This document shows, one piece after another, positions 4,713 through 21,380 of a DNA stretch of 64,000 nucleotides (position 1 is its first letter; every line of letters starts with the position of its first letter). Under the pieces are notes generated by a model that searched no databases, had not been told where the DNA came from, and saw only the letters and a program-made list of their open reading frames with translations. Made by a program: the position numbers and the translations under genes. The stretch comes from Leyella stercorea. GTDB taxonomy: Bacteria > Bacteroidota > Bacteroidia > Bacteroidales > Bacteroidaceae. The DNA is taken from the NCBI RefSeq assembly GCF_021531655.1, contig NZ_JADYUF010000004.1:1-64000 (forward strand), read 5' to 3'.

Positions 4713-4833
4713 AATCTTAGGTTTTTAATGCGGCGGATTGACTTTACCACATATATGAATATGCAAAAATACGCTAAAAAAGGCGAAAGGCAAAACAATT
4801 AACGAAAAAAAGATGATTGTTTTTATTTTCAAC

Positions 4834-4925
4834 GCCAACTGCGGAAGTGAAATCGCGCCAACTACGGAAATGAAATCGCGCCAACTGCGGAAATAAAATC
4901 GTGCCAACTGAGGAAATAAGGCGAT
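4834..4925. repeat. Four 23-bp tandem repeats
   Basis: Units of 23 bp start at 4834, 4857, 4880 and 4903. Each begins GCCAACTGCGGAA or a close variant and continues with (G/A)TGAAATCG. They lie upstream of the acyl-CoA synthetase promoter. No function is evident. Confidence 0.85.
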
Positions 4926-5266
4926 GCCAAGCCCTTTCGTTTCTCATGATTCTTACTGCCGTAGGCGACTTTGCCTACCAACGCAAGGACGGTGTGTATG
5001 TAGTACTAATAAATACACTACATCACACGTATATTTTATGTGCGTTCTGATGACAAGTACTATGCAATACGATAGAATGTACCTTTACAATCGTTACACT
5101 AATGCCCAGGTCGTGACATAAAGAAACGTTGCGTGTCTTGAAATGATCGTATCATGCCTTGAAATGATCGTATCATGCCATGATACGAAGGTTTTTACCG
5201 GATAATAGCCGAGCACTTGGGGCGAAGTTGTCGTCATGCGAAATTATGACAAAACAATAACAAACA
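4926..5266. other. Intergenic region with a short duplicated motif
   Basis: No credible gene. A 21-bp direct duplication containing ATGATCGTATCATGCC occurs at about 5139-5180 and is followed by an inverted part-copy (CATGATACGA). The short frames here lack a ribosome binding site and recognisable composition. Confidence 0.5.
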
Positions 5267-5315
5267 AAAGAAAGCGTATATCCCGTCCACGCTGTGGACG
5301 GGATATACGCTTTCT
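5267..5315. terminator. Terminator after the left susD
   Basis: A near-perfect hairpin with a stem of about 21 bp (AAAGCGTATATCCCGTCCAC paired with its complement around a 3-4 base loop), with T-rich flanks on both sides. It sits 25 nt after the stop of the left susD on the minus strand. Confidence 0.85.
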
Positions 5316-5339
5316 TTATGTTATGTTCAGTCTATTATT

Positions 5340-6956
5340 TTAGTTCTGATCGTCAGGTGTCAGAGCCTTGTTGTTCTCAATCTCTGAGATAGGAATCTGA
5401 TAACGGAAGTTGCGAGACTCCTGATCGAGCTTCAGACGAGCAGTTGCCAAGTGGTTGTTGTGCGGGTCGGTAGAAGTGCGGTCAAGCGTGATGTTAAGAC
5501 GACGGTTGTCAAGGAACTCGATACCCTCACCCCAGAACTCTACACGCTTCTGGAAGTTAATCTCCTCAATGAGGTCGGCCTTGGTGTTGCCCTTAGCGTA
5601 GGTGTAGCTGGGCTGACGTGTCTTCATGAACTCCTCAAGAGCAGTCTTTGCACCTGCAAGGTCGCCCTTATGAGCCAGAATCTCAGCCTTCATGAGGTAA
5701 GCCTCCTCCGAACGGAGATAGATGTAGTCGCCAAGTTCCCAACCTGGAGCGCCATTGCCCTGAGCGATGCTCTTGGCGTTAGCAATGACAGCGTCACGGC
5801 CAGAACCGATGAACTTAACAGCCTGATACTCACAAGCTGCAGGAGCCATAACGTCGCGCTTCAAGGTGAGACGACCACCCTTGTAATCAATACCTGTAGA
5901 ACGGTCGCAGCAGAACCACTTCAGACGCAAGTCGTCGTCAGCAATCTTGTCTACAAACGGACCATAGGCAGCACGCCATACGCCGATACCTGCATATCCT
6001 TTACTGTAGCTGTCCATCTGCGAGAACCACGACATGTATAGAGTAGTATTGTCGGCAGTGATGTCGCATCCATACACTACGTCAGGAAGATTGATATCGC
6101 TGAATCCCTGAAGAATCTGATCCTCGCCCTTCAGAACGGGGAAGTTGTCGACTATCACCTGTGCATAGGTCAGAGCCTGATCCCAATCGTGAGTAATCAT
6201 GTATGCACGTGCGAGGTAAGTTGCAGCAACGCATCCGTCGAAATCGGTAGGATCTGTTGTCTTCTGCATGCCGATTTTATTGAAGATGTCGTATGCAGTG
6301 CCGAGGTCGCCCTTAATCTGATCCATAACCTGCTTGACAGTGCTCAGAGGCTGGTCGCCCTCAGTATTCTCTGTTACGATAGGTACACACTTCGACTCTG
6401 AGAAGTCGTAGTGCTGACCCTTGCCCCACTTGGTGTCGTCGCATCCTACATAGTAGCTCTGCTGATAGAGATAAGAGAGCTGCAGGTAGGCATAGCCACG
6501 CATGCCGAGAGCTATGGCACGATACTTCAAGACTGCCTCATCGGTAGTTTCCGGATCGATGGTCTTGAGAATCTGGTTGGCATTGTCAATGCAACGATAA
6601 TACTCACGCCAACGGTTGGCAGTAGCAGTATAGTTCTGTGCCCAATAGTCGCAAAGATAGTGATAAAGACTCATAGCGAATCGGCCGGTCATAACCATAT
6701 CGTTGCCCATAAGCGATGTAAGATAGTCGAAACTCTTCTGGCCGAAGTAGTTGTGATTCATGTTACTATACACGTAACTCTGCATATCGCTGTACATACC
6801 AGCTACTGCTGACGAGAACACCTTGTCAGGATTCTCTTTGGCAAGTTCTGTGCGACGGTCTTCCGTCAGATATGTGTTCTGCTCGGCATCGTCGATACAG
6901 GAGGTGAAGAGTGGAAGTGACGCAAGTGCCAGCAAAAATATTTTTCCTTTTTTCAT
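5340..6956 (-). CDS. SusD/RagB family outer-membrane lipoprotein
   Basis: A 538-aa nutrient-binding lid protein that would cap its SusC partner on the cell surface. The N-terminus has a lipoprotein signal ending LPLFTSC, with Cys20 as the lipidated residue. The TPR-like SusD fold is suggested by RAIALGMRGYAYLQLSYLYQQS, ATYLARAYM, LRSEEAYLMKAEILAHKGD and the C-terminal QKRVEFWGEGIEFLDNRR. It starts 28 nt after the SusC stop, so the two are co-transcribed. No glycoside hydrolase or SusE-like gene follows, so this is a minimal SusCD unit and the ligand cannot be guessed. Confidence 0.93.
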   Translation of the reverse strand: MKKGKIFLLALASLPLFTSCIDDAEQNTYLTEDRRTELAKENPDKVFSSAVAGMYSDMQSYVYSNMNHNYFGQKSFDYLTSLMGNDMVMTGRFAMSLYHYLCDYWAQNYTATANRWREYYRCIDNANQILKTIDPETTDEAVLKYRAIALGMRGYAYLQLSYLYQQSYYVGCDDTKWGKGQHYDFSESKCVPIVTENTEGDQPLSTVKQVMDQIKGDLGTAYDIFNKIGMQKTTDPTDFDGCVAATYLARAYMITHDWDQALTYAQVIVDNFPVLKGEDQILQGFSDINLPDVVYGCDITADNTTLYMSWFSQMDSYSKGYAGIGVWRAAYGPFVDKIADDDLRLKWFCCDRSTGIDYKGGRLTLKRDVMAPAACEYQAVKFIGSGRDAVIANAKSIAQGNGAPGWELGDYIYLRSEEAYLMKAEILAHKGDLAGAKTALEEFMKTRQPSYTYAKGNTKADLIEEINFQKRVEFWGEGIEFLDNRRLNITLDRTSTDPHNNHLATARLKLDQESRNFRYQIPISEIENNKALTPDDQN

Positions 6957-6984
6957 TGTTTTCCTGTTTTAAAATTTGATGAAC

Positions 6985-9900
6985 TTAGAATGTGATGTTG
7001 ATACCGCCGGTGATTGTGCGCATTGGTGAATAGCCACCATAGCTGCTGTTGCCGCCACTCATTGAAACGCGCGGGTCGAAGCCCTGACGCTTAGAGAAGA
7101 GAGCCAAGTTGTCACCTGTTGCGAACACGCGGATAGAACCGATACCCCAACGCTTCATCAAGCTTGACGGCAATGTGTAGCCGAGCGTAATGTTGCGGAT
7201 GCTGAAGTAAGATGCACTGATAAGGTGGGCATCTGATGTCTGGGTGTATGAGTTAGACGAGTTGTTGGCGTTCCAGATAGGATACTTACCCTTGCTTGTC
7301 TCCGGATTCCATGTATCCCACATATCTCTGTTGTGGCCTACGTAGTACGAAACGCTCATACCGCTGAGGTACTGTGAGTCGTATGCCCATCCGCCAAGCT
7401 GGAATGCAGTAGCGATGTTCACGTCGAAGCCCTTGTATGAGAATGAAGTGTTCAAACCACCGTTGAAGTCGGGCAGAGCCTGCTTGCCAAGCCAGTACTT
7501 TGTAGCCTCGGTATATTGGCCTGTAGTAGTCTGGCCGGTAACGTTGCCTTGCTCATCCTTCTCGTCGGTATACCATGTCGGGTTGCCCTTCTCGTCCATG
7601 CCAGCATACTTGTATGTGAAGTACTCGTAGCGGCTCTTACCCTCCATGAGCTTGAATGCACCGCTTACGATACCGTCCTCACGGTTCTCCTCAGGCAGTG
7701 TAAGCACCTTGTTAGAATAGTGTGAACCAAGCAATGTAACGGTCCACTTCATATCCTTGTTCTTGATGATGTCGGCGTTCAGTTCAAACTCGATACCGTT
7801 GTTGCGCATTGCACCGATATTCTCCCAGTTGTAAGGACGGCCACTTGATGTTGCCAAAGGACGCTTGAACAGCATGTCGTCAGTACGACGTGTGAAGAAG
7901 TCGATGTTACCGTAGATACGGTCGAGGAAACGGAAGTCAAGACCGAGGTCGAATGTCTTCTGAGTCTCCCAAGAGAGGTCCTTGTTGCCATAGAAAGCTA
8001 CTGCGTAGCCAAGCTTTGAACCGTCCCATGTCACATCATACATGTCTACATACGGAGTGTAGCCATAAAAATAACCCGGAAGGATAGCCTCGTTACCCTG
8101 TGTACCGTAAGATGCACGGAGCTTCAGGTCGTTGAGCCATGACTTGGTGCTCTCCATAAACTTCTCTGACGAGATACGCCATCCGGCACCTACCGACCAG
8201 AAGTTGCCCCAACGGTCGAGGAAGCGTGATGTACCGTCGCGACGGAACGCAGCCGAGAGGTAGTACTTGTGAGCATAGTTGTAGTCAGCCATTGCGAAGT
8301 AGCCCTCGATGTTGTGAGTTACAGAGTTGCTCGTCAGTGACTGAATCTGACCACCATTGTAGAGTTCAGAGTTATACGGATCGAAGAAGTTTGTCTTCTG
8401 TCCTTCCAGATAAGTTGTCTTGTATGTATAGTACTCATGGCCAAGCTTGGCAGAGAAGTTGTGATCCTCGTCGAACACATTCTCATAAGAGAGAATCTGG
8501 TTGAAGTTGCTTGTCATATCTGTACCACTTGCACGTGTGCCACGACCATTGAACGAAGCACCGTCGCCGATGGTAGGAGTCATGAAGCTGTTGCTTGTTA
8601 CATTGGTGAAGTCGTAAGCATAGTTGGTCACGAACTTGAAGTTGAGCGGCAACTTCACCTCGATGAACGAACGTGTAGAGATGTTGTTGTAGATATTCTC
8701 GTTGATATCCTCGTTCATTGAGCATATGATGTTCTGGTTCTGAGCTGTAGGACGCGATTCTGTGCCGTCAGTCTGGCCTGTACCGGCATCATAAATCGGT
8801 TTGCCATTCTCATCGCGTTTCATGTTGCCCTGAGCGTCATAGGCATGTACCGGAAAGATAGGAGCCCAACCGCGAGCTGTCTCAAACGGGTTAGAAGCCG
8901 TACCCGAACGCTCCTGTACACCATTGCTCTTGGTGTGCGAGTAAGCGATGTTGGTACCTACCTTAAGCCATGACTTCAGCTGTGAGCTGACATTGGCACG
9001 CATTGTATAGCGCTCGTATGAAGAACCGATAACGTACGACTGGTTGTCAAGATAGCCTGCTGACAAATAGAAGTTGGTGCGGTCGTTGCCACCCGATGCA
9101 GAGATGGTGTATTCCTGACGGAATGCCGACTTGAACAGTGCATCAGCAAATGAGTCGTTGTAGCGCAACTTGGCATTCTTATTAAATGTACCATCGGTGT
9201 TGACGAGATACTCACCCTCTGGAACAATGTAGGCATTGTAGTTGCCCAGTTCGCCGAGCAAGCTGCTACTTGCAGTTTCTGCAGCCTCCGCAAGCGACTT
9301 GCCTGCAGCCCACTCTGTGTTGCGGATACCGTACCATGTAAGGCGATAGAACTCACTCTGGTCGGTAGCCATGTCATAGTCCTTGTAGGCACGGTTAGAA
9401 ACGCCCCATGTGCCACGGAAGTTGATGGCAACCTTCTCCTTGCTGCCCGACTTTGTGGTCACCATAACCACGCCGCCTGCTGCACGCGAACCGTAAAGTG
9501 AGTTAGACACAGCGTCCTTAGACACTGAAATCGACTGGATATCCTGAGGGTTGATGTCTGACAATTTGCCGTTGAAAGGCACACCGTCGACTACGATAAG
9601 GGCTGCGTTGCTGGCAGACATAGAACCGATACCACGTACATAGATGGCGGCATCGCTACCCGGCTGACCTGAACCACTGAGCACCTGTACACCTGCGACA
9701 GCACCCTCAAGAGCACTTGATACAGAAGACGACTGCGCATTGGCAATAATGTTCTTGTTGACGTTTGCCACCGAACCTACAACATCCTGCTTGCGCTTAG
9801 TACCATAAGCCACTACTGTCACCTCGCCCAACTGCTCGTTGTCTTCCTCGATGACAATAACAAGATTGGTACGGTTCTTCACCTGTACAGTCTGGGGCTT

Positions 9901-10131
9901 GTAGCCGATATAAGTGATGTTGAGCTTACTGTTGGCCGGCACCGAGATGGAGAATTGTCCATCGCCAGCGGTAACGGCACCTACATTCGAACCTTCAACC
10001 TTAACGGTAGCTCCTATGATAGGATTGCCGTTGGCATCGGTGATTTTGCCCTTCACAGTACGATTCTGTGCCATAGCCATAGAGCTGGCAACGAGCGCTG
10101 TACAAAGCGTGAGTGCAATTTTCTTTACCAT
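6985..10131 (-). CDS. SusC/RagA family TonB-dependent transporter
   Basis: A 1048-aa outer-membrane importer. It has a signal peptide ending MAMAQ (residues 1-22), a carboxypeptidase-like regulatory beta domain (about 23-100, KGKITDANGNPIIGATVKVEG), a TonB box/linker, a plug domain (about 110-230, with the SusC signature LYGSRAAGGVVMVTTKSG) and a long 22-strand-type barrel ending in ITGGINITF. It pairs with the SusD that follows. A perfect 31-bp repeat ends immediately before its start codon and is shared, inverted, with the right-hand susC at 14061. I see no good -33/-7 promoter on this side, which suggests the gene may be off in the present orientation. Confidence 0.95.
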   Translation of the reverse strand: MVKKIALTLCTALVASSMAMAQNRTVKGKITDANGNPIIGATVKVEGSNVGAVTAGDGQFSISVPANSKLNITYIGYKPQTVQVKNRTNLVIVIEEDNEQLGEVTVVAYGTKRKQDVVGSVANVNKNIIANAQSSSVSSALEGAVAGVQVLSGSGQPGSDAAIYVRGIGSMSASNAALIVVDGVPFNGKLSDINPQDIQSISVSKDAVSNSLYGSRAAGGVVMVTTKSGSKEKVAINFRGTWGVSNRAYKDYDMATDQSEFYRLTWYGIRNTEWAAGKSLAEAAETASSSLLGELGNYNAYIVPEGEYLVNTDGTFNKNAKLRYNDSFADALFKSAFRQEYTISASGGNDRTNFYLSAGYLDNQSYVIGSSYERYTMRANVSSQLKSWLKVGTNIAYSHTKSNGVQERSGTASNPFETARGWAPIFPVHAYDAQGNMKRDENGKPIYDAGTGQTDGTESRPTAQNQNIICSMNEDINENIYNNISTRSFIEVKLPLNFKFVTNYAYDFTNVTSNSFMTPTIGDGASFNGRGTRASGTDMTSNFNQILSYENVFDEDHNFSAKLGHEYYTYKTTYLEGQKTNFFDPYNSELYNGGQIQSLTSNSVTHNIEGYFAMADYNYAHKYYLSAAFRRDGTSRFLDRWGNFWSVGAGWRISSEKFMESTKSWLNDLKLRASYGTQGNEAILPGYFYGYTPYVDMYDVTWDGSKLGYAVAFYGNKDLSWETQKTFDLGLDFRFLDRIYGNIDFFTRRTDDMLFKRPLATSSGRPYNWENIGAMRNNGIEFELNADIIKNKDMKWTVTLLGSHYSNKVLTLPEENREDGIVSGAFKLMEGKSRYEYFTYKYAGMDEKGNPTWYTDEKDEQGNVTGQTTTGQYTEATKYWLGKQALPDFNGGLNTSFSYKGFDVNIATAFQLGGWAYDSQYLSGMSVSYYVGHNRDMWDTWNPETSKGKYPIWNANNSSNSYTQTSDAHLISASYFSIRNITLGYTLPSSLMKRWGIGSIRVFATGDNLALFSKRQGFDPRVSMSGGNSSYGGYSPMRTITGGINITF

Positions 10132-10162
10132 AAAATCTCTCTCTTTTGGTGAATAATATAAT
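10132..10162. repeat. Left 31-bp inverted repeat (candidate recombination site)
   Basis: Read on the minus strand this begins ATTATATTATTCACC and continues AAAAGAGAGAGATTTT, ending directly at the susC start codon. It is a perfect reverse complement of 14029-14059. The GAGAGAGA part also serves as the purine-rich ribosome-binding region. Confidence 0.92.
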
Positions 10163-10206
10163 TGTAATTGTTATTATCGAGTCTTAACGTCCGCCACTAC
10201 CGGCGA

Positions 10207-10232
10207 AGCTTCTCCGCCTACGGGCGGGAGGT
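10207..10232. repeat. Left 26-bp inverted repeat with hairpin core
   Basis: A GC-rich sequence with the self-complementary core CTCCGCCTACGGGCGGAG-like hairpin. It is a perfect reverse complement of 13934-13959 and lies in the same order relative to the 31-bp repeat on both sides, so both susC leaders share two blocks. Confidence 0.9.
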
Positions 10233-10322
10233 GGTGAATGAGGGCATAAGCTACTACACCTTATTTATATAAGTAACTATTAAGTATTTGTCCTTTTTTA
10301 TTTTATATATGAGTTCATTTCC

Positions 10323-10626
10323 ATAGGAGGATGTGTCAAAAGTCAAACAAAGCGGGCTGAAAGCCCCAAAAGCACATAGCCCAAGGCAGCGTCTTGGGTG
10401 TACGAATTGAAAATATCAAAACGCCCTGCAAGGGCAAAAGCATTGATAATTAACGCTTTTGCCCTTGCAGGGCGCATCGGTATTTGTGATACTTTTACCC
10501 AGGGCGGTGCCCTGGGCTATGTGCTTCTGCCCCTTTCGGGGCGTGCTGCTTTGACTTTTGACACCCTCCTATGAATGTCATTGGGCTTTCAGCCCGCATT
10601 GTTTGAGTTTTGACACACTCTCCTAT
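10323..10626. repeat. Dispersed palindromic element, copy 1 (extended)
   Basis: Ends are ATAGGAGG..GTGTCAAAAGTCAAA and its complement TTTGACTTTTGACACCCTCCTAT, with nested hairpins inside: GCGGGCTGAAAGCCC, CATAGCCCAAGGC..GCCCTGGGCTATGTG, and a central CGCCCTGCAAGGGCAAAAGC / GCTTTTGCCCTTGCAGGGCG stem. An additional half-copy is fused on the right (10568-10626). Similar elements lie at 33924-34165, 36386-36618, 32728-32810 (deleted) and 55990-56052 (central stem only). It encodes no protein, and long nested inverted repeats suggest a MITE or REP-type unit. Confidence 0.85.
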
Positions 10627-10672
10627 TATATATGTAAAGATAATTTTGAACTGTTACTTATCAATATAGGTG

Positions 10673-10760
10673 GCAGTACCAGCCAGTATAAACTCCAGTA
10701 CCAGTTATATGAAACTCCAGTACCAGCTGTATGAAAATCCAGTACCAGTTATGCTATACT
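10673..10760. repeat. Four 22-bp iterons upstream of the recombinase gene
   Basis: CCAGTACCAG (first copy GCAGTACCAG) recurs exactly every 22 bp at 10673, 10695, 10717 and 10739, with AT-rich spacers such as TTATATGAAACT. An inverted half site GGTACTG follows near 10767. The array ends about 100 nt before the recombinase start. It could be an operator or a recombinase-binding array. Confidence 0.85.
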
Positions 10761-10859
10761 GAAAACGGTACTGAGAAACTGCCGTTGCAAGTATTGCTTG
10801 TATTGATTATTATAGTAAATTGGGGATCGTATTGTCTAACCTCTTAATGCTTTAATGTT

Positions 10860-11825
10860 ATGGTATACTTCAGAATTGAAATGGGATTGGGAAAAGATCC
10901 GAAAGAAAACAAACGTAGCGTTACAACTGCAAAGCGGTTGAACGGAATGAGTTTTGCCAAGGCTGAGGCAGAACGTATTGACCAAGAGCAACGCCACAAG
11001 ACCGCCTACAACTATCTTACAGCCGTACGCTCGCTCACGCAATTCATCGGCAACGACAAATGGAGTTTTGCCGACATCACGACCTCTATGCTTGAGCGCT
11101 ATCAACGATGGCTTTGCAACCGAGGAATACGGCTCAATACCGTGTCGGTATATATGCGTACGCTGCGGGCCTTGTACAACCGGGCGGTGGAAAATAATGC
11201 CGACAGTCCGTTCTCAGCTGTGTTCACGGGGCACGAACAGACAGCCAAACGAAGCGTCACCGAATCAGAGATACGCCAATTGCTTGCATTACGGCTCGAC
11301 AGCCAACCGCATCTTGCCTTGGCTCGCGACCTTTTCGTGTTCAGCTTTATGGCTATGGGAATGCCGTTTGTAGACATAGCCTACCTGAAATGGCACCAGA
11401 TAAACGACGGCGTGATGCACTACGCACGCCACAAGACTGGGCATAAAGTGTGCGTGAACGTCGAACCATGTATGGCTGAAATCATCAATCGCCACGCCAT
11501 AACGGGCAGTGAATACGTGTTTCCGTTGCTTGCAGGCACCACAGCCGACAATGTTCACCCGACTTATCTCAAACGGCTGCGCTCGTACAATTATGCCCTA
11601 CGCCGCCTCTCGTCACTCATCAACACCAGCCGTACGCTCTCGTCGTATGTGGCACGCCATTCATGGGCAAGCCTTGCCTACCGCTCCGGACTCGACATTT
11701 CGCAAATAGCCAAGGCTATGGGTCACACCAAACTGTCCACCACCTTAATATATATACGCGCATTGTTCGACCCTTCGCTTGCCGAAGCCAACAAAAAGAT
11801 GATGCAGGCATTAGGTGTAATGTGA
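10860..11825 (+). CDS. Tyrosine recombinase (Bacteroidetes invertase/integrase type)
   Basis: A 321-aa site-specific recombinase with an N-terminal SAM-like core-binding domain (about 30-115) and a catalytic domain (about 130-310). Visible catalytic elements are ARHSWAS (Arg266), MGHTKLSTT (His289) and the nucleophile Tyr298 in TLIYIRAL. At the box I position, where relatives usually read RGM-FVD, this protein reads AMGMPFVD, with Met166 in place of the first arginine; the Bacteroides integrase IntDOT is a known precedent for lacking that arginine. The gene lies between two divergent susC genes that share inverted leader repeats, so its likely job is inversion of this segment. An alternative start is ATG at 10878. 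Confidence 0.93.
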   Translation: MVYFRIEMGLGKDPKENKRSVTTAKRLNGMSFAKAEAERIDQEQRHKTAYNYLTAVRSLTQFIGNDKWSFADITTSMLERYQRWLCNRGIRLNTVSVYMRTLRALYNRAVENNADSPFSAVFTGHEQTAKRSVTESEIRQLLALRLDSQPHLALARDLFVFSFMAMGMPFVDIAYLKWHQINDGVMHYARHKTGHKVCVNVEPCMAEIINRHAITGSEYVFPLLAGTTADNVHPTYLKRLRSYNYALRRLSSLINTSRTLSSYVARHSWASLAYRSGLDISQIAKAMGHTKLSTTLIYIRALFDPSLAEANKKMMQALGVM

Positions 11826-11838
11826 CGACAACGAATCC

Positions 11839-11885
11839 GATAACTTGCCAAAATCATGATTTTTTATAAGTTTTGGCAAGTTATC
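11839..11885. repeat. Upstream inverted repeat of the ATPase_2 gene (IR1)
   Basis: GATAACTTGCCAAAA (11839-11853) and its exact complement TTTTGGCAAGTTATC (11871-11885), with a 17-nt AT-rich centre. It begins about 14 nt after the recombinase stop and could also act as a weak terminator. It repeats the architecture of IR2 at 11892. Confidence 0.9.
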
Positions 11886-11891
11886 CAAACC

Positions 11892-11938
11892 GATAACTTG
11901 CCAAAACCGTATTTTTTTTGTAATTTTGGCAAGTTATC
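11892..11938 (+). promoter_or_regulatory. Promoter embedded in inverted repeat IR2
   Basis: The same 15-bp arms as IR1. A -33 TTG (11898-11900) lies in the left arm and a -7 TAATTTTG (11921-11928) in the right arm, exactly 20 nt apart. The promoter therefore sits inside the dyad, as expected if a dimeric regulator, possibly the gene's own product, bound the arms and blocked transcription. The start codon is 16 nt after the right arm. Confidence 0.75.
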
Positions 11939-11953
11939 AATAATAAATGGCAT

Positions 11954-13393
11954 ATGGACAAGTTAATCGGAAGGCATAAAGAACAGTCGATACTGAAGAA
12001 CTGTCTTGAATCGGGACGTTCGGAGTTTGTTGTAATATACGGTCGTCGCCGTATAGGCAAGACTTTTCTTGTGCGTCGTTTCTTCAACGACACTTACGAC
12101 TTTTCGTTTGTAGGCAAGCATGATATGCCACGCGAACAGCAACTTGCCGATTTCGCAAAGACATTGCAACGTTACTCTTCATCAGAATTTACTCCAGAAC
12201 TGAAGAATTGGACACAGGCTTTTGACGGTCTTGCCAAACTGCTTGAAGCAAAAGACACGAGCAGAAAGAAAGTGATTTTCTTCGACGAAATGCCGTGGAT
12301 GGACACTCCAAAGTCGGATTTCGTGTCGTCATTGGAGAACTTTTGGAACGGATGGGCAGCAATGCGCGATGACATCGTGTTTGTAGCTTGCGGCTCAGCC
12401 ACATCGTGGATGATTGACAGTCTGCTCCATAATCAGGGTGGACTCTTCAATCGTATCACGCGCAAGATATATCTACGTCCGTTCCGCCTATATGAAGTGG
12501 AGCAGTATATGGACGAACACCACTTCAATTGGAGTCGATATCAGATTGCACAATGCTACATGATATTGGGAGGTGTGCCTTTCTATCTGACACTTCTCAA
12601 TCCGCACATGTCGTTATTGTCTAACATCGACGAGCTGTTCTTTGCTGACAGCCACGCCATGCTCCGTACGGAACACAACGAACTCTACGCTACACTCTTC
12701 AAGCGTCCCGACAATTATCTTACGGTAATTCGTCTGCTCACACAACGAAAGGAAGGATATACACGCAAGGAAATTTCAGAAAATACGGGGTTGGGTGGAG
12801 CTACGCTCACGAAGGTACTTTCTGATTTGGAGCAATGCGATTTTGTGCTGCCATACGCACGCTACGGCAATAAGCGCAACAATACAATCTACCGCATTAA
12901 AGACTTCTACACTCTGTTCTTCTATAAATATATACAAGGTGTAGACACGAAAGACCCGCACCGCTGGACCCATCTGTCTTCAAGTCAGCAAGTGGTGAGT
13001 TGGCAAGGATTCAGTTTCGAATTGTTGTGTCTGATGCATCTTGACGAGATAAAGCAGGCTCTTGGCATCGACCGAATACTCAACGATTCAAGCGCATGGC
13101 GTAGCCGACAAGGCGGACATGGCACACAGATTGACCTTGTGATAGAGCGTGCCGACCGGAATATAAACATCTGTGAAATGAAATTTTCCGGTACACCTTA
13201 TATAATAAGCGCCGACTACGAACGTCGCTTACGTGAGCGTATGGCTATTTTCCGTGCCGAGACGGCTACACGTTGCAGTACACGCATGACAATAGTTACT
13301 ACATACGGGGTTTTACCTGGAAAACATTCGGCAATTGTTGATGATGAGGTTACTCTCGACAATTTGTTCACCGTGACCGACGACACTAAATAG
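11954..13393 (+). CDS. AAA ATPase with DUF234/PD-(D/E)XK-like tail
   Basis: A 479-aa protein of the archaeal-type ATPase_2 family (PF01637 with DUF234). The Walker A motif is GRRRIGKT (30-37) and the Walker B motif is IFFDEMPWMD (about 109-118); a winged-helix-like segment follows (about 270-310, YTRKEISENTGLGGATLTKVLSDLE). The C-terminal domain has IDLVIERADRNINICEMKF, with the ID..E-x-K pattern of PD-(D/E)XK nuclease folds. The cellular role of the family is unknown. It follows the recombinase and lies within the candidate invertible segment. Its promoter is built into a pair of inverted repeats. Confidence 0.85.
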   Translation: MDKLIGRHKEQSILKNCLESGRSEFVVIYGRRRIGKTFLVRRFFNDTYDFSFVGKHDMPREQQLADFAKTLQRYSSSEFTPELKNWTQAFDGLAKLLEAKDTSRKKVIFFDEMPWMDTPKSDFVSSLENFWNGWAAMRDDIVFVACGSATSWMIDSLLHNQGGLFNRITRKIYLRPFRLYEVEQYMDEHHFNWSRYQIAQCYMILGGVPFYLTLLNPHMSLLSNIDELFFADSHAMLRTEHNELYATLFKRPDNYLTVIRLLTQRKEGYTRKEISENTGLGGATLTKVLSDLEQCDFVLPYARYGNKRNNTIYRIKDFYTLFFYKYIQGVDTKDPHRWTHLSSSQQVVSWQGFSFELLCLMHLDEIKQALGIDRILNDSSAWRSRQGGHGTQIDLVIERADRNINICEMKFSGTPYIISADYERRLRERMAIFRAETATRCSTRMTIVTTYGVLPGKHSAIVDDEVTLDNLFTVTDDTK

Positions 13394-14028
13394 ACAACGC
13401 AAAAACCGGAAATTACAAAAAAGACAATAATATTCTTTATTTTACAATAAACGCAGCGTGTTTTTGCTTTCATATTGCAAAATAACGCTGTGTTTCTTTT
13501 ATTTTTGTCATCTTTTAAATTTACAAATATTAATTGTTGGAATGTAAACAAAATATATAAACAATTCATTTGTTTGCATTTTTATGCGACTTTTCTGCAT
13601 AATTATACCTTTCATATGTAAATATGTCCATACACGAACATTGCAAAAACTAAGGTACAATAGGCGTTTTATTGACTTATGTAATAAAAATGCAATATTT
13701 GCGAACATTTTGTATCAAAATATTTGGAGCTATGACAAATAATAACTATTTTTGCAAATGAATTGAAATATTTAGAAATATTAAAACATTCATTGTGGGT
13801 TTATGCCTACACAAAAACAAAAGTAATTAAGCAATTACTTCGACAACGATAGGCCGACAATTACATATTGTCTATACCTATTATATATATGCAACAACAA
13901 CACATCAAGCGTTGCAACATACATCTCTAAAGAACCTCCCGCCCGTAGGCGGAGAAGCTGACACCATTTACAGACACAGTAAGAAGGTGAAGGCGACACA
14001 AACACAGTAAAAAGAAGGAAACAATTAT
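13394..14028 (+). promoter_or_regulatory. Upstream region and promoter of the right susC
   Basis: Non-coding AT-rich region. A clear promoter is present: -33 TTG at 13724-13726, 20 nt, then -7 TATTTTTG at 13747-13754, pointing right. This predicts a 5' leader of about 300 nt before the susC at 14061. An imperfect hairpin near 13450-13500 (AACGCAGCG..ACGCTGTGTT) may end ATPase transcription. The 26-bp GC-rich repeat (13934-13959) lies inside the leader. Confidence 0.7.
13934..13959. repeat. Right 26-bp inverted repeat with hairpin core
   Basis: Exact reverse complement of 10207-10232. It lies 69 nt before the right 31-bp repeat, against 44 nt on the left side. Confidence 0.9.
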
Positions 14029-14059
14029 ATTATATTATTCACCAAAAGAGAGAGATTTT
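14029..14059. repeat. Right 31-bp inverted repeat (candidate recombination site)
   Basis: Exact reverse complement of 10132-10162, ending one base before the susC start codon at 14061. The two copies bound a 3.9-kb segment carrying the recombinase and the ATPase. Confidence 0.92.
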
Positions 14060-14060
14060 T

Positions 14061-17039
14061 ATGGAAAAAAGATTCATGACTTTTGTAGCCTGCCTTTTCC
14101 TGAGCATAGGAATGGCACTGGCTCAATCTCGCATTTCCGGTAAGGTCACCTCAGCCGAAGACGGGCACCCCGTTGTTGGTGCCACAATTAAGGTAGTGGG
14201 CTCGAAGACAGCGAGCGCCATAACCGACGTCGACGGCAACTTCTCGATCAGCGTTCCTGCAGGTTCGCGTCTTGAAGTGACCTACATCGGTATGGTTCCT
14301 AAGACTGTCAAGGCTTCAAGCAATATGAGCATTGAGCTTAATGCCGACAGCCATGCACTTGACGACGTAATCGTAGTAGGTTATGGTACTACACGCCGTG
14401 AAGCCAAGACCGGTTCTATTACATCGGTAAGCTCAAAGGAGCTGGCCGACGTTCCCGCTACATCATTCGACAAGATGCTTGCCGGCAAGATGGCTGGTGT
14501 GAGCATCACACAGACAACCGGTCAGCCGGGCTCTAACTCACAGATTCGCATTCGTGGTATCAGCTCTATCTCAGCCGGCAACGAACCATTGTACGTTGTC
14601 GACGGACTGCCTATAACATCAGGCGACGACGGTGCATTCACCAACAGTAGCAACGCCCTGTCGGCTATCAACCCTGACGACATCGAAAGCATCACAGTAT
14701 TGAAGGATGCCGCTGCCGCTTCGGTTTACGGTTCGCGTGCTGCCAACGGTGTTATTCTTATTACAACCAAGAGCGGCAAGGAGGGCAAGAGCCACCTTAC
14801 GGCACGTGCCAAGTTCGGTATCTCACAACTTGCCAACGACAACAACTACGGAGTGATGAACGCCCAGCAGCTTCTTGAATATGAGCGCACAGCCATTCGC
14901 AATGCAGGTATGGATCCGGACAATCCCGCCAACCCGGCAAACGCTTATCGCCCGATGTCTATTCTGCAGGGCCCGCTCTACAACTGGATGGACGCCGTGA
15001 CACGCAACGGCAAGATGCAGGACTACGAACTGACACTCTCGGGTGGCTCGGCTCGCACCAAGTACTACAACTCATTGAACTATCAGAAGACCGAAGGTGT
15101 ATTCCCGGGCTTCGAATTCAGCCGTATCAACTTCCGTGTCAATGCCGACCACGAGATCAACCGATTCCTCAAGACCGGTGCGCGCATCAATGCCGGCTAT
15201 TCGTACAGCGAGGACGTACCTACACAGAATTTCTATTATTCAAACCCAATCTTTACGGGTATGACTTTAGAACCGTGGCAAAAGCCCTTCAACGAGGACG
15301 GAACACCCAACGTAAATCTTCCGACCAACAGCAACACCAACCCGCTTGCCACTGCCATGTACGACGACCAGTGGAGCAAGCGCTATGCTTTCAACGGTAG
15401 CGTATATCTTGAGTGGAAGCCTATCAAGCAACTTACATTCAAGACTACTGACGGTGCCGAACTGTCGTTCATCAACGGCCGCCGCTACTGGAGCCCCCTT
15501 GCTCACACCGACCAGAAAGGTACGGGTACGCTGCAGACCGACCAGATGATTTATCGTTCGTTCACTACATCTAACACAGCCACCTATCAGGACCAGCTGG
15601 GCAAGCACTATCTGCGCGTATTGCTGGGTCAGGAGGCCAACTACAGCGACTCTGAGGAGAACTACGAAAGATCGCAGGGACTCGACCCGCAGATACCTTA
15701 CCACGTTAGCGGCAACTCTACCAACGACATTGCCTATGGTATCGGCACTGTGACTATGATGTCATGGTTTGGCATTGCCGACTACAACTTCGACAACCGC
15801 TACTTCATCCAGGCATCACTTCGTTCGGACGGCAGCTCAATATTCGGCAAGAACAGCCGCTGGGGTACATTCTGGTCGGTAGGAACATCATGGAACATCC
15901 ACAACGAGAAGTTCATGGAGTCTGCCAAGGATTGGTTGCAGGTGCTCAAGTTGCGCGCCAGCTACGGTATCAACGGTAACGACAATATCTCAAATTACCT
16001 CTCATACGGCACCTACACACAGTCGGTGTACAACGGCATCACTGGACTTCGTCCTGACAAACCAGCCAACCCCGACCTTTCATGGGAGAAGAACAAGGCG
16101 TTCAACGTAGGTATCGACTTCCACGTACTGAAGCGTCTCTCGGGTAGCATCGACTTCTATACACGTAAGACTTCCGACATGCTTCTTGCCAAGTCGCAGT
16201 CGTCAACATCAGGCTTCAACTCGATGACTACCAACATCGGTTCGCTGCGCAATACCGGTGTAGAATTCCAGCTCAACGCCAGCATCATCGACTCGAAGGA
16301 CTGGAAGTGGGACATGGGATTCAACATCTCGCACAACCAGTCGAAAGTGCTTGAGCTTGCAGGTGAGGACTACCTCACATACGGCGACGGATTTATCCGC
16401 CACTTCGTAGGCGAGAAGCTCTATACATTCTATCTGCGCGACTATTACGGAGTCAACCCGGTTAACGGCGAGGCTTTGTGGCGCACCGAGGACGGCTCAC
16501 TCTCAAACAACGTAAGCAACGCACGCTACGTGAAGTGCGGCAGTCCGGAGCCTACATACGCCGGCGGTATCAACACCACTGTATCATGGCGCAACCTCAC
16601 GCTGAGCGTAGTCACAGAATTCAAGGGTGGCAACAAGGTTCTTATCGCCGACAACAACTTCGTCAACAGCGACGGCTCACGTGTCAACATGAACCAGTCA
16701 GTCACAGCACTCAACTACTGGAAGAAGCCGGGCGACACAGGATGCAACCCGAAGCCTATATACAACAACTCTACCAGCTCAAGTTCGACAAGCTCGACAC
16801 GTTACCTTGAGAAGGGCGACTACTTCCGCATCAAGGACGTGACACTCTCGTACAGCTTCGACCGCTCGCTGCTCAGCAAGATTGGTCTGCAGGGAGCACG
16901 CGTCTACACCAGTGCCCTCAACCTCTACACATTCCACAATGTGAACTTCTGGGATCCGGAGCGTGGCGTTGACGGACTCGGCAAAGGTATCTATCCTGTC
17001 ACAAAGACCTTCATGGTAGGTCTTGACATCACCCTGTAA
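14061..17039 (+). CDS. SusC/RagA family TonB-dependent transporter
   Basis: A 992-aa outer-membrane importer. It has a signal peptide ending GMALAQ (1-22), a carboxypeptidase-like domain (about 24-100, SGKVTSAEDGHPVVGATIKVVG), a TonB-box region (DDVIVVGYGT, about 110) and a plug with the signature VYGSRAANGVILITTKSG (about 225-242), then a barrel ending VGLDITL. It differs from the left susC throughout its coding sequence, yet shares its two leader repeats. It heads an operon with SusD, two lipoproteins and probably the C10 protease. A strong promoter lies about 310 nt upstream, so this copy is probably the expressed one. Confidence 0.95.
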   Translation: MEKRFMTFVACLFLSIGMALAQSRISGKVTSAEDGHPVVGATIKVVGSKTASAITDVDGNFSISVPAGSRLEVTYIGMVPKTVKASSNMSIELNADSHALDDVIVVGYGTTRREAKTGSITSVSSKELADVPATSFDKMLAGKMAGVSITQTTGQPGSNSQIRIRGISSISAGNEPLYVVDGLPITSGDDGAFTNSSNALSAINPDDIESITVLKDAAAASVYGSRAANGVILITTKSGKEGKSHLTARAKFGISQLANDNNYGVMNAQQLLEYERTAIRNAGMDPDNPANPANAYRPMSILQGPLYNWMDAVTRNGKMQDYELTLSGGSARTKYYNSLNYQKTEGVFPGFEFSRINFRVNADHEINRFLKTGARINAGYSYSEDVPTQNFYYSNPIFTGMTLEPWQKPFNEDGTPNVNLPTNSNTNPLATAMYDDQWSKRYAFNGSVYLEWKPIKQLTFKTTDGAELSFINGRRYWSPLAHTDQKGTGTLQTDQMIYRSFTTSNTATYQDQLGKHYLRVLLGQEANYSDSEENYERSQGLDPQIPYHVSGNSTNDIAYGIGTVTMMSWFGIADYNFDNRYFIQASLRSDGSSIFGKNSRWGTFWSVGTSWNIHNEKFMESAKDWLQVLKLRASYGINGNDNISNYLSYGTYTQSVYNGITGLRPDKPANPDLSWEKNKAFNVGIDFHVLKRLSGSIDFYTRKTSDMLLAKSQSSTSGFNSMTTNIGSLRNTGVEFQLNASIIDSKDWKWDMGFNISHNQSKVLELAGEDYLTYGDGFIRHFVGEKLYTFYLRDYYGVNPVNGEALWRTEDGSLSNNVSNARYVKCGSPEPTYAGGINTTVSWRNLTLSVVTEFKGGNKVLIADNNFVNSDGSRVNMNQSVTALNYWKKPGDTGCNPKPIYNNSTSSSSTSSTRYLEKGDYFRIKDVTLSYSFDRSLLSKIGLQGARVYTSALNLYTFHNVNFWDPERGVDGLGKGIYPVTKTFMVGLDITL

Positions 17040-17088: not shown

Positions 17089-18528
17089 ATGAAAAAGATA
17101 TTTATCGGAATGGCTATCCTCTCGGCTGGATTATTCACGTCGTGCAGCGACTTCCTGACCGAGGAGCCAAAGCAGGAACAGAGCAACGAGCTGACGTTCG
17201 CAACATTCGACGGCGTGAACAAGGCTGCCGCCGCTATGTATGGAATGTTCCAGAGCGATGCATGGTACGACGGCGAATTCACGCTTATGTCTGAACTGCG
17301 CTGCGGCAATGCCAAGAACCCGACATCGGTGCCGGGCTCGGGACGCTACCGCTCAGACACACAATGGATATACAGCGACCGCAGCACTTCGCCCCTATGG
17401 AGCTACGCCTACTACACAATAGCACGTGCCAACAACGTGATAAACAATCTCGACGACAAGGTAGGCGTGGACGCTACACAGCAGCAGGTAAACAATGTCA
17501 AGGCCGAGGCGCTCTTCATTCGCGCCCTGTGCTACTTCGACCTTGTGATAACCTACTGCCAGCCCTACAACTACAATGCCACCGAGGACGACAAGATGGG
17601 TGTGCCACTGGTGCTCGTAACCGAGAACGGCAAGCCCGCACGCGACTCTAAGGAGAACGTATACAATCAGATTGTTGCCGACTTGCTGCAGGCTGAGAGC
17701 ATAATGGCTGACGACTACGTACGTGCAGGCGTTACCGACAAGGCTGCAACTCCTACAAAGCCTGCCATCCAGGCACTGCTCTCGCGCGTATACCTTTATA
17801 TGAACAAGTGGCAGGAAGCTGCCGACTACGCCACAAAGGTTATCAACAACAAGAAGTATGAACTTGCTCCGGCTGACGCTTATGCAGCTATGTTCTCGGC
17901 AGCTACGGCTCCTGAGGGCGGCGAGATAATCTTCGAGGTGTACGGTTCGGACAAGAACGAGTATTGGGACAACTCTGGTTGGGCTCACCTTCCATACATC
18001 ACCACTACCGACGACAAAGGTTCGCACGGCGACGTTTGCGCCACTAAGGACCTTTACGACCTCTACTCTGAGGGCGACATACGCAAATCGATGTACAAGC
18101 AGCACGGCAACGACTACTTCCCGACAAAGTATTCGGGCAAGCCGAAGGACTCTGACCCGAAATACACCAACGTTCCCATCCTGCGCCTTTCGGAGATGTA
18201 CCTCAACCGTGCCGAGGCCATCATCAACGGAGCCTCTATTCAGGGCGTGACAGCCGAGAGCGATCTCCGCAAGATAGCTACAGTACGTGGCGCATCGCAG
18301 ACAGCAGCTGCTACAAAGCAGGGCGTATTTGACGAGCGCCGTCGCGAGCTGGCTTTCGAGGGACACATAGCTGCCGACTACGCACGCTGCAACAAGTCGA
18401 TGACACGTAAGGATTTCGACGACTCGAAGAACAAGGATGTGGCATTCCCAAGCTACATGTGGGCACTGCCTATACCTAACCGCGAGTGCACCGCCAATCC
18501 TAACGTGGCTCAGAACCCTGGTTATTAA
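17089..18528 (+). CDS. SusD/RagB family outer-membrane lipoprotein
   Basis: A 479-aa surface lipoprotein partner of the preceding SusC. The lipoprotein signal ends GLFTSC (Cys19). SusD-type features are YYTIARANNVINNLDD, AEALFIRALCYFDLVITY, QALLSRVYLYMNKWQEAADYATKVI, LRLSEMYLNRAEAIINGAS and the C-terminal DERRRELAFEGH. It starts 49 nt after susC. It would close over the SusC barrel and bind the nutrient; association with a protease gene downstream hints at peptides, but this is inference. Confidence 0.93.
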   Translation: MKKIFIGMAILSAGLFTSCSDFLTEEPKQEQSNELTFATFDGVNKAAAAMYGMFQSDAWYDGEFTLMSELRCGNAKNPTSVPGSGRYRSDTQWIYSDRSTSPLWSYAYYTIARANNVINNLDDKVGVDATQQQVNNVKAEALFIRALCYFDLVITYCQPYNYNATEDDKMGVPLVLVTENGKPARDSKENVYNQIVADLLQAESIMADDYVRAGVTDKAATPTKPAIQALLSRVYLYMNKWQEAADYATKVINNKKYELAPADAYAAMFSAATAPEGGEIIFEVYGSDKNEYWDNSGWAHLPYITTTDDKGSHGDVCATKDLYDLYSEGDIRKSMYKQHGNDYFPTKYSGKPKDSDPKYTNVPILRLSEMYLNRAEAIINGASIQGVTAESDLRKIATVRGASQTAAATKQGVFDERRRELAFEGHIAADYARCNKSMTRKDFDDSKNKDVAFPSYMWALPIPNRECTANPNVAQNPGY

Positions 18529-18548
18529 TCTAAAGAGAGAGAAAAGCT

Positions 18549-19451
18549 ATGAAAATATTCAAGAATACAACCATAGTACTCGCAGCTCTTGCTGCCGTGG
18601 CACTCGCCTCGTGCAACAACGACCAGCCCGAGTTCAATGACAAGGATGCTTTCGTATCGTTCACCGACACAAAGGCTTCGATCGACGAAAACAAGGCAAC
18701 ACTCGAAATACCCGTACAGCTTTCGTCGCTCAAGGGAAAGGAAGGCTCTGTCGACTTCGAGATTACTCCCGACAAGACAGCACCTGCCGTAGAGGGCACC
18801 AACTACACCGTTGCCAACGCTACGCGCACGCTCACCTTCACCAAGGAATCCAACGTGCAGAACATCAAGCTCAACATCGTTGACCTTGCAGGCACATTCA
18901 CCGGCGACCTCCGTCTGAACATCAAGCTCAAGAATGCGCAGGGCGTAAACCTTGGAGCCGAAAGTTCGTTCGATGTGACAATCGTCGATCTCGACCACCC
19001 GTTGGCTTTCATGCTCGGAACGTTCAGAGCAAGCGGAACTTCACAGTATAACGGTGCTGAAACTTGGACAGTCAATATTGCCAAGGACGACAAAGACGTC
19101 AACAAAGTATGGATTACCAATATGGTACTTGGTGCCTCGTCGCCTAATTATCCTATATACGGAACCGTAAACGAAGAGAAGACCGAGATACGCATTCCTG
19201 CATATCAGGTAATGGGGAAGAGCAGTTCTTATCCAGCCGTATTGTTCACCATCCTGGATTCAGAAGGAGAAAACCTTGTTGAAGACTATATGCTCGGCAA
19301 GATAACAACCGATGCCAACGGCAAGGCTATCATCACATTCGCCGACAACTTCTTCGGTACAGGTGCCTTCGACTCTGCTACACCTTCGGAGTCCGCATTT
19401 AAGGGATTCTTCAATCTATATCAGCCTGGTGTAGTGTTCAAGAAGAACTAA
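18549..19451 (+). CDS. Surface lipoprotein, SusE-position, Calx-beta-like
   Basis: A 300-aa protein with a lipoprotein signal (MKIFKNTTIVLAALAAVALASC, Cys22). Residues about 30-155 look like a Calx-beta/Ig-type beta sandwich (ATLEIPVQLSSLKGKEGSVDFEI, FDVTIVDLDHP). The C-terminal half (about 155-300) looks like a separate beta domain (FRASGTSQYNGAETWTVNIAKDD). It lies 20 nt after susD, where SusE/F-like ligand-binding lipoproteins normally sit. Function is inferred from position; no family is confidently named. Confidence 0.8.
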   Translation: MKIFKNTTIVLAALAAVALASCNNDQPEFNDKDAFVSFTDTKASIDENKATLEIPVQLSSLKGKEGSVDFEITPDKTAPAVEGTNYTVANATRTLTFTKESNVQNIKLNIVDLAGTFTGDLRLNIKLKNAQGVNLGAESSFDVTIVDLDHPLAFMLGTFRASGTSQYNGAETWTVNIAKDDKDVNKVWITNMVLGASSPNYPIYGTVNEEKTEIRIPAYQVMGKSSSYPAVLFTILDSEGENLVEDYMLGKITTDANGKAIITFADNFFGTGAFDSATPSESAFKGFFNLYQPGVVFKKN

Positions 19452-19489: not shown

Positions 19490-21100
19490 ATGAAAAAGTT
19501 ATTATATAGTCTTGCAGTCGCCTTTGCAGGTATTGCAGCCCTCACGGGCTGTACTACCTTCGACGACGAGCACTCAGAGCACTATGGCGAAGGCCCTGCC
19601 GTAGCCATAAATCTGACGGAGACCAAGGACAACTCGTTCACATTCACCGTCAATCCGGCTGAAGGCACCAACTATTATGCCTACACCGTTGTTGAGGGCG
19701 ACGAAGCCGAGGACGTAAGCGAGGACGATGTGCTCAAGAAAACGATGGGTGGCATAAGCGAAGCCATCGTTAACTACTCGAAGGCAGCATCTACTACCGT
19801 CAACATGCTCAACTCAAAGGGCGAGGGCATCTGCTCGCCCAACAAATCGTATGTTATCTACGCCGTAGCTGCCAATGCCAATGGCATTACCGGTAAGGTA
19901 CAGTCGCTCGTGGTGAAGACCACCGACGGCAATGCTCCTACACTCGAACCGTACGAAGCAGGCGACCCGTCGGCTGAGACAACCGTTACATTCTCTGAGC
20001 CTGTATTCAAGGGCGAAGGCACCGTTTCGGCTAAGTACTATCAGGAGTGGGGCGACGGCGAATTCATCAACGTGCCTGCTGACAAGGTTCACGCAACAAT
20101 CAATGGCGCCAACGTGACATTCACTGTCGACGACGTTCCTGCCGGAGCATACGTGCTCTATTCTTGGACTGAGGGTGCATTCAAGGACAGTTTCGGCAAC
20201 AAGTGTCCGGCTGAGAACACCGTTATCGGCGACGAGGGATTCGTAGGCGTATACAACCGCCAGCCGCTCAAGCCGTTTGCCATCGAAGCCAAGCAGTTCA
20301 CACCTGCCTCAGGCAGCACAATCGGCGAGTACGACAAGTTCAAAGGCGTTATAACATTCGCTTTCGACGTATTCCGCAACGACATTGAGGAGTCGGACGA
20401 CTGCGTAAAGCCAGGCGACCTCTCGCTCACTTACTCTAACGCCAAGCGCTCTACAACCATCAATCTCGACCCGAGCGACTGGAGCGTAAACGGCAAGACC
20501 GTCACATTCAAGATGCCCGAGGCTGCTGTCGAAGGCGACAAGGTGACACTGAAGATAAAGGAAGGCGTCATCATGGACATCAACGGCAACGGCAACGAGG
20601 CTTTCGCTTCTACCGACGTAGCATGGAAGTACGACGGCTTCACAGCCACAGCTGCTATGCTCGAGGGCAACTACACGCTGACATACTACTCTGCCCGTGA
20701 GAAAAAGAAAGTGACCAACCATGTGACTATAACCAAAGCCACGACTAACAACGAGGACGGCACCAAGTTTGTCATCAGCGGACTGTACGCAGCCGGCAGC
20801 CAGGTTGCCGCTGTAGCCGACTATGCTAACAACCGACTCTACATCTTGCCAGGCTATGGAGTAGGCACGTATGACAAGAATGGTATTTCGGGAGTCATCA
20901 TTACATTCTCGGCAAGCCAAGCCAAATCTATTGAATGCAAGATCAACAAGGACGGCAGCATCACTACATCCGACCTTGCACTTGCATTATATGTTAAAGG
21001 TGAAGGAGTAGTTGATTTCTTAGACTTACTGAAAAATGCCAAGTTTGTCAAGACTACATCAGCTGCCAAAGCCAAGAGCCGTCGTGCAGCCAGAAAGTAA
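19490..21100 (+). CDS. Surface lipoprotein with repeated Ig-like domains
   Basis: A 536-aa protein with a lipoprotein signal ending ALTGC (Cys21). It is composed of several beta-sandwich modules. Residues about 165-260 and 275-395 resemble SwmB/Ig-like domains with F(T)PASG and VTFTVDDVPAGAYVL / VTFKMPEAAVEGDKVTLKIKEGV patterns. The tail is basic (AAKAKSRRAARK). It is the fourth gene of the SusCD operon, 38 nt after the previous one, and is followed by a strong terminator. It is likely a cell-surface binding or scaffold protein; ligand unknown. Confidence 0.8.
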   Translation: MKKLLYSLAVAFAGIAALTGCTTFDDEHSEHYGEGPAVAINLTETKDNSFTFTVNPAEGTNYYAYTVVEGDEAEDVSEDDVLKKTMGGISEAIVNYSKAASTTVNMLNSKGEGICSPNKSYVIYAVAANANGITGKVQSLVVKTTDGNAPTLEPYEAGDPSAETTVTFSEPVFKGEGTVSAKYYQEWGDGEFINVPADKVHATINGANVTFTVDDVPAGAYVLYSWTEGAFKDSFGNKCPAENTVIGDEGFVGVYNRQPLKPFAIEAKQFTPASGSTIGEYDKFKGVITFAFDVFRNDIEESDDCVKPGDLSLTYSNAKRSTTINLDPSDWSVNGKTVTFKMPEAAVEGDKVTLKIKEGVIMDINGNGNEAFASTDVAWKYDGFTATAAMLEGNYTLTYYSAREKKKVTNHVTITKATTNNEDGTKFVISGLYAAGSQVAAVADYANNRLYILPGYGVGTYDKNGISGVIITFSASQAKSIECKINKDGSITTSDLALALYVKGEGVVDFLDLLKNAKFVKTTSAAKAKSRRAARK

Positions 21101-21208: not shown

Positions 21209-21318
21209 AAAAGGAGTCCTTTTGATGTGTAAAAGGAGTCCTTTTGGCATCTAAAAGGAGTCCTTTTGCAGGGCAAAACGAGTCCTTTTGAACAGCAAAA
21301 GGACTACATTTGGAAAGC
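21209..21318. repeat. Array 2: five 22-bp palindromic units
   Basis: Units start at 21209, 21231, 21253, 21275 and 21297. The first three have perfect AAAAGGAGTCCTTTTG cores, the fourth has AAAACGAGTCCTTTTG, and the fifth the TACA variant. The array fills most of the gap between the operon terminator and the C10 protease start (21381), so it lies in the protease promoter region. Confidence 0.92.
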
Positions 21319-21380
21319 CACCGCATCCAGACGGGTCTACAACGAGCAAAAAAACCTGTTACAATCAAGAAAACAACAAT

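Follow-up and report, generated by a model that had tools for sequence, protein, structure and literature searches.

The 64,000-nucleotide stretch analysed here (the window; positions 1 to 64,000 of contig NZ_JADYUF010000004.1, Leyella stercorea assembly GCF_021531655.1) contains a tyrosine recombinase gene between two divergent susC genes, at a locus that is very likely to be a site-specific, two-way inversion switch between two susC systems. SusC and SusD are surface-exposed transporters of gut Bacteroidota for glycans or other nutrients, and recombinase-driven SusC/SusD inversion is known in Bacteroides. In this gut bacterium, a relative of Leyella (Prevotella) stercorea, a segment of ~3.7 kb that carries its own recombinase and one promoter probably chooses, by flipping, which of two neighbouring nutrient-import systems is active. 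The initial annotation had proposed an invertible promoter switch at this place, and the proposal is supported because the centres of the likely crossover sites are specific to each locus, the promoter lies mostly 3' of the recombinase, and a homologous segment is inverted in relatives.

The inverted repeats of the window

Domain matches bear out the basic layout: SusC/RagA genes (TIGR04056) diverge from both sides of the recombinase-bearing segment (Table 1), and the two genes differ in sequence shortly after the start codon. Their leaders contain two perfect inverted repeats, of 31 bp and 26 bp, which the repeat search recovered in the same order on both sides, as first described. The 31-bp repeat sits in a 46-nt match of 87% identity and terminates in AAAAGAGAGAGATTTT immediately before the ATG; its left copy adjoins the left susC start (10131), and its right copy stops one base before the right start (14061). 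The copies of the inner, 26-bp repeat are 3701 nt apart, ~100-130 bp upstream of each susC, and include an inverted pair of the core ACCTC-CCGCCCG-TAGGC. A 17-base word of the 31-bp repeat and a 19-base word of the 26-bp repeat each have exact matches in the window only at their two repeat places (0.19 and 0.01 matches, respectively, expected from shuffles). When up to 3 mismatches are allowed, the 17-base word gains one more match in the window (18524-18540), directly upstream of the third right-operon gene (18549), and the 19-base word gains none.

The two repeats appear to have different roles. Relatives such as L064 and L106 have comparable words ahead of their susC starts, and the 31-bp repeat is therefore read as probably a translation leader common to both susC genes. 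The initial annotation had placed the switch within this ribosome-binding leader; the crossover is instead most likely to occur at the 26-bp repeat in the 5' leader, which has a core of the ACCTC-N7-GAGGT type. The repeats and content of the 3.9-kb segment that had been described stand, but the size between the likely crossover sites is ~3.7 kb. An integrative mobile element was also considered and rejected. Direct-repeat attachment sites at both ends were not found (none of 10 direct-repeat families of at least 14 nt has copies on both sides of 10207-13959), and the flanking repeats are inverted.

The likely crossover site in related loci

Of 398 genomes searched in the same genus, 119 contain a recombinase match at an E value of 1e-40 or better, and the surroundings of 58 matches, mostly the best-scoring ones (L053-L072 and L096-L133), were examined. 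There is some redundancy among the 58, as L070 equals L096 (100% over 19 kb) and one contig supplied both L105 and L115. A susC-recombinase-susC layout, in which divergent susC genes flank the recombinase at up to 3.5 kb on either side, is present in 29 of these loci in addition to the window; among the remaining 29 are contig ends and loci where susC has no match. The design, which had been called unusual, is therefore recurrent in its layout. What does set the window apart is the ATPase gene carried on the segment: it has no match at an E value of 1e-5 in any of the 58 loci, and a 97% identical protein is present in L. stercorea An906, the nearest genome compared.

The site was compared in 31 loci (the window, An906 and the 29 relatives) by taking the best ACCTC-N7-GAGGT match per leader, up to 700 bp from the start codon, with only the half-sites scored. 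Both leaders contain a site with no more than 2 half-site mismatches in 26 of the 31. Although the 7-bp centre did not enter the score, the two arms agree in it completely in 25 of these 26 loci, the window among them, and at 6 of 7 bases in L057. Between loci, identical centres occur in just 3 of 325 pairs, and there are 23 distinct centres. The site also marks a sharp edge. In five-base bins, the identity of the two sides is 0.23-0.35 between 40 and 6 bases inside the site and 0.48 in the last five; it then climbs to 0.98-0.99 in the site's first 15 bases and drops outside it from 0.81 to ~0.5. Tyrosine recombinases need the same overlap in both partners and tolerate many different overlaps; identity within a locus together with a sharp homology edge is thus the pattern expected of such an enzyme.

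The same site is found apart from susC. In L060, L062 and L069, which have no susC match, a recombinase of the same family has two inverted sites ~180 bp apart beside it. A full TTTG-N20-TAnnTTTG promoter motif lies between the sites in L062 and L069, and one with a single mismatch in L060; all three motifs face the recombinase, away from the neighbouring open reading frame. Since loci without susC carry the site, its interpretation as a universal susC leader element is ruled out. In a scan of 25 genomes, the 4 exact sites among the matches listed (those of 6 genomes) all lie at switch loci. One-mismatch matches are common, at 7-28 per genome vs 1-10 for a reversed-pattern control.

Orthogonality of the centres within a genome is not claimed. 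Loci L104 and L108, both of G368, have one exact site each, with a common centre, and recombinases that are 97% identical, so that cross-talk between distant sites is possible.

Among other genera of the order, a recombinase match at 1e-45 was found in 25 of 295 sampled genomes (An906 included). In seven of ten loci from these genera, a small inverted pair lies close to the recombinase; it is of a GTTAC type in L177-L180, ACCTC-like in L182 and of other types in L183 and L186; L184 and L185 have none. In L181 (G643; 1756-9786), the recombinase lies between long inverted homologous gene stretches without a susC match, with a palindromic inner repeat of an ATCTC type. This is another family, and its arrangement indicates that the design with an enclosed recombinase may extend beyond susC.

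The promoter and its leader

The promoter motif searched for was TTTG or NTTG, 17-23 bases, and TAnnTTTG. In the window, three matches face the right susC, at -314 from the ATG (the full TTTG-N20-TATTTTTG), -561 and -2140, the last two being poorer than the first. The scan agrees with the initial annotation in placing a good -33/-7 promoter on the right side only, and it finds no match facing the left susC. In An906, a TTTG and a TAATTTTG box are seen by eye at the corresponding place.

When both sides were scored in 30 loci, the 3' side of the recombinase had the better match in 25 and the 5' side in 3, with ties in 2 (L055 and L058), a bias with a binomial p of 2.7e-5 and a Wilcoxon p of 0.003. 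The full-score TTTG-N20-TAnnTTTG is present in 17 of the 30, on one side only in 16, and in 13 of these on the 3' side. Thus, the promoter usually rides 3' of the recombinase.

The RNA from the promoter to the right susC (13755-14075) is predicted to fold far better than shuffles (z -3.80) and is possibly a regulatory RNA that would move with the promoter. This leader appears to be partly conserved in An906. An Rfam search gave 7 matches at E values up to 0.5, every one under the gathering score. A general leader RNA family was considered and rejected: the leader word is exact only in An906 (G001) of 149 genomes and present at up to 2 mismatches in 3 of the 149.

Inversion between related genomes

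The most direct comparison is between L071 (G178) and L097 (G156), whose recombinases are 96% identical and whose inner segments are 1,212 bp each. These segments match at 1153 of 1212 bases in reverse and at 739 forward. The right susC stretch, by contrast, has kept its side (2616 of 2940 bases match). The 45-base stretches just inside the sites have changed places accordingly: that on the left in L071 equals that on the right in L097, and that on the right in L071 resembles that on the left in L097. A homologous 1.2-kb segment is inverted between the two genomes, exchanged at the site. This comparison depends on the right flank, since the left susC genes are more divergent (1976 of 2949). 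In L072 (G257) and L112 (G284), both flanking susC operons are alike (84% and 83%), the recombinases are 64% identical, and the recombinase is reversed, with the promoter directed towards different orthologs. Two further pairs are in the same orientation: L102 and L103, whose recombinases are 99% identical, and the window and An906. Comparison with other strains, which the initial annotation had suggested, accordingly gave a divided answer, the nearest strain having the same orientation and related genomes having the homologous segment inverted.

An906 has 23% of its 31-letter words in common with the window, and its locus is split between the ends of two contigs (L022 and L023), which fall at window positions 13551 and 13644. 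Over the left susCD stretch the DNA is 97% identical, and the 31-bp leader word is unchanged and precedes both susC genes (two copies at up to 1 mismatch). The inner repeat reads ACCTCCCGGCAAGAGGT in both arms of An906 and ACCTCCCGCCCGTAGGC in both arms of the window. Each strain has one core in its two arms and the cores differ between strains; therefore, the arms change together. Such a joint change would not be expected of two unconnected leaders.

The right susC genes of the window and An906 align over their start only. In the window, prfB and an AMP-binding ligase adjoin the left susCD genes; in An906, they adjoin the other susCD operon. In L116 and L122, one operon is 96% alike and the recombinases are 57% identical. 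These relationships suggest that susCD units are exchanged at such loci. When window 1-4871 and 5263-10191 are set against L023 and L022, the flanks are seen to be rearranged, and the match of the left module stops at a hairpin-like stretch at ~5263-5317.

Proposed mechanism and alternatives

In the mechanism proposed, the recombinase would recognise a 17-bp dyad (ACCTC, a 7-bp overlap, GAGGT), and the ~3.7-kb DNA between the two cores would flip. The promoter, which lies inside the segment and 3' of the recombinase, would point outwards across the site. In the orientation drawn, it would transcribe the right susC-susD operon, together with the Calx-beta protein, another protein and perhaps the Peptidase_C10 protein, and the left susCD pair would be OFF; once inverted, it would instead drive the left susC-susD pair. 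Along with the promoter, the flip would carry the recombinase, the ATPase gene and the initial part of the leader RNA, and the 31-bp repeats at the start codons would supply the same translation leader to either gene. We infer that the recombinase acts on the 26-bp site, that flipping occurs in the window strain, and that it has this ON/OFF outcome. If the switch is indeed two-way, one or other of the two systems would be expressed at all times, rather than a single system being ON or OFF.

Several observations weigh against this mechanism. An arginine of box I is missing from its expected place in the recombinase, where GMPF is the usual reading in the family. Two half-site mismatches are present in the window core, and five of the 31 loci (L058, L064, L106, L114 and L122) are without a recognisable site pair; the susC starts were set by script and are apparently wrong in L064, L071 and L106, which shifts distances, and misplaced start codons may therefore explain some of the misses. 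The promoter is on the 5' side in L109, L113 and L117 and on both sides in L055. When 24 loci were scanned at up to 1 mismatch, most of those without a susC pair, other than the three described above, had no close site pair. An906 is in the orientation of the window, so that no inverted copy of the window locus itself has been seen, and its halves lie on separate contigs, their linkage being deduced from matches of the arms and the promoter region.

Inversion could instead proceed by general (RecA-type) recombination, through the 31-bp repeats or longer leader and N-terminal homology, and the recombinase would then be dispensable. The perfect repeat beside both ATGs would suit this pathway, as would the arms of many relatives, which remain alike through the signal peptide (unlike those of the window) and on through the N-terminal coding region. 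However, arm homology starts sharply at the ACCTC-N7-GAGGT core, the centre of which is locus-specific; the sequences inside the core have swapped sides in L071 and L097; and the same type of core flanks small promoter segments without susC. Such an origin is consequently rated as quite improbable. A static relic, in which duplicated susC leaders lie beside a stranded integrase and no inversion takes place today, is judged no more probable. It would account for an imperfect core in the window and for a locus known in one orientation only (the window and An906), but not for arms that have one core within each strain though strains differ, an intact recombinase frame with the conserved catalytic residues, a promoter on one side, and inverted relatives.

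The least credible alternative is that the palindrome is an RNA attenuator hairpin of the susC leader rather than a recombination site, and that gene conversion keeps it alike in the two arms. The palindrome does lie within the predicted transcript, is able to form a hairpin, and belongs to a leader with the favourable folding noted above. Yet it coincides with the inner edge of arm homology, has a centre that differs from locus to locus, and is found on either side of promoter segments where no susC is present. The palindrome could serve both as attenuator hairpin and as recombination site.

Relation to known systems

Tsr0667 of Bacteroides fragilis is a tyrosine-type recombinase. It is described as driving inversions of the shufflon type, which affect three SusC/SusD clusters as well as nine other regions (PMC4747536, PMC11852207). 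The window resembles this system, so described, in that inversion by a recombinase alters which SusC/SusD proteins are made, and differs in having, in place of multiple inversions, one site pair, with recombinase and promoter inside the flipping segment. A shufflon has more than two sites at one cluster, and the 19-base word has two copies in the window at up to 3 mismatches.

Local invertible promoters are a second parallel. B. fragilis Tsr19/BF2766 (IVp-I) is described as inverting one local and one distant promoter (PMC4747536), and invertible capsule promoters lie beside a recombinase in B. xylanisolvens and Parabacteroides distasonis, with an internal palindrome in the repeats (PMC12118408). 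By these descriptions, the recombinase adjoins the promoter and surface genes are controlled, as in the window, and the sites of the B. xylanisolvens and P. distasonis promoters share the internal palindrome. The arms are of a GTTAC type in B. xylanisolvens (PMC12118408), as in L177-L180, and of an ACCTC type in the window. Three features of local tyrosine-recombinase invertible promoters in Bacteroidales are present here: a recombinase, inverted sites with identical overlap, and an outward promoter (by motif only). A fourth, the occurrence of both orientations, is seen between homologous loci (L071 and L097, L072 and L112) but not at the window locus itself, for which An906 was the one comparison. 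Where those promoters are described as flipping beside the recombinase to give ON/OFF control, the window has its recombinase inside the inverted DNA and would form an A/B switch. The Mpi system of B. fragilis is described as inverting capsule promoters (PMC4747536, PMC12632263). It too gives surface variation by promoter inversion, but Mpi is a serine recombinase acting on many distant regions, unlike the tyrosine recombinase of the window. Regions in or near SusC/SusD systems are reported to be among the most orientation-variable in inflammatory bowel disease (PMC10939037).

Among the titles, abstract openings and passages that the literature search covered, none describes a Prevotella susC switch whose segment encloses the recombinase; an earlier description elsewhere is possible. 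With that reservation, the two-site, self-carried form, having recombinase and promoter inside the segment, is a new variant; SusC/SusD inversion itself was already known. More tentatively, and with somewhat less than even confidence, the Prevotella group may hold widespread, undescribed, self-contained A/B switches of this kind, in which a dedicated recombinase, one promoter and optional cargo occupy a segment between divergent surface-transporter operons, mostly with a 7-bp overlap of its own. If susCD units were exchanged as modules, such a locus would be both a switch and a docking point for new transporters. The site rule (ACCTC-N7-GAGGT, the same centre in both arms, a promoter usually 3' of the recombinase) proposes switches from assembled genomes without reads and supplies a testable enzyme-site pair.

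Recombinase, segment cargo and neighbouring genes

Table 1. Features of the window locus and of three small predicted invertible promoters in related genomes
Feature	Position	Strand	Basis or remark
Left susD	5340..6956	-	SusD-like_3 and SusD_RagB domains
Left susC, predicted OFF in present orientation	6985..10131	-	TIGR04056, 771.7 bits; no promoter match towards it
Left 31-bp inverted-repeat copy, probable susC translation leader beside ATG	10132..10162		Repeat search; 17-base word also precedes both An906 susC genes
Left 26-bp inverted-repeat copy, likely crossover site	10207..10232	-	Repeat search and site comparison; 17-bp core 10216-10232
REP-like palindromic element, left half of segment	10340..10640		Repeat search
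Tyrosine recombinase, 321 aa	10860..11825	+	Phage_int_SAM_5 (PF13102) and Phage_integrase (PF00589); K192, R266, H289 and Y298 present
Two near-identical palindromes, GATAACTTGCCAAAA ... TTTTGGCAAGTTATC, upstream of ATPase gene	11839..11938		Repeat search; matched in An906
ATPase (ATPase_2/AAA), inside segment	11954..13393	+	Domain search; sub-threshold helix-turn-helix (HTH_IclR) match
Promoter TTTG-N20-TATTTTTG, Bacteroidota -33/-7 type, towards right susC	13723..13754	+	Motif only; TTTG 13723-13726, TATTTTTG 13747-13754
Leader stretch between promoter and site, would travel with promoter	13755..13933	+	Fold z -3.80 for 13755-14075
Right 26-bp inverted-repeat copy, likely crossover site	13934..13959	+	Repeat search and site comparison; 17-bp core 13934-13950
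Right 31-bp inverted-repeat copy, probable susC translation leader	14029..14059		Repeat search
Right susC, predicted ON	14061..17039	+	TIGR04056, 828.3 bits
Right susD	17089..18528	+	Domain match
Calx-beta domain protein, right operon	18549..19451	+	Domain match
Protein with sub-threshold fn3_3 match, right operon	19490..21100	+	Domain search
Peptidase_C10 protein with Inhibitor_I69 domain, possibly right operon	21288..22979	+	Domain search
Predicted ~180-bp invertible promoter, L060	9097/9274		Drawn OFF
Predicted ~180-bp invertible promoter, L062	9045/9225		Drawn OFF
Predicted ~180-bp invertible promoter, L069	10136/10318		Drawn OFF

Residues K192, R266, H289 and Y298 of the recombinase, which we take to be catalytic, are invariant across 59 aligned recombinase sequences. 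Among solved sequences, even the nearest, which are XerC-like, XerD and phage-type integrase entries, are distant, and a search of viral contigs gave no relative of the recombinase.

The palindromes between the recombinase and ATPase genes are possibly an operator of the latter. With these palindromes upstream and a weak helix-turn-helix match of its own, the ATPase may regulate itself. Between An906 and the window, protein identity is 97% for the ATPase and 77% for the adjoining recombinase; therefore, the two genes of the segment differ in their recent history. The REP-like element in the left half of the segment, a stretch that is unaligned in An906, is dispersed, with further copies in the window at 33935-34163 and 36386-36613.

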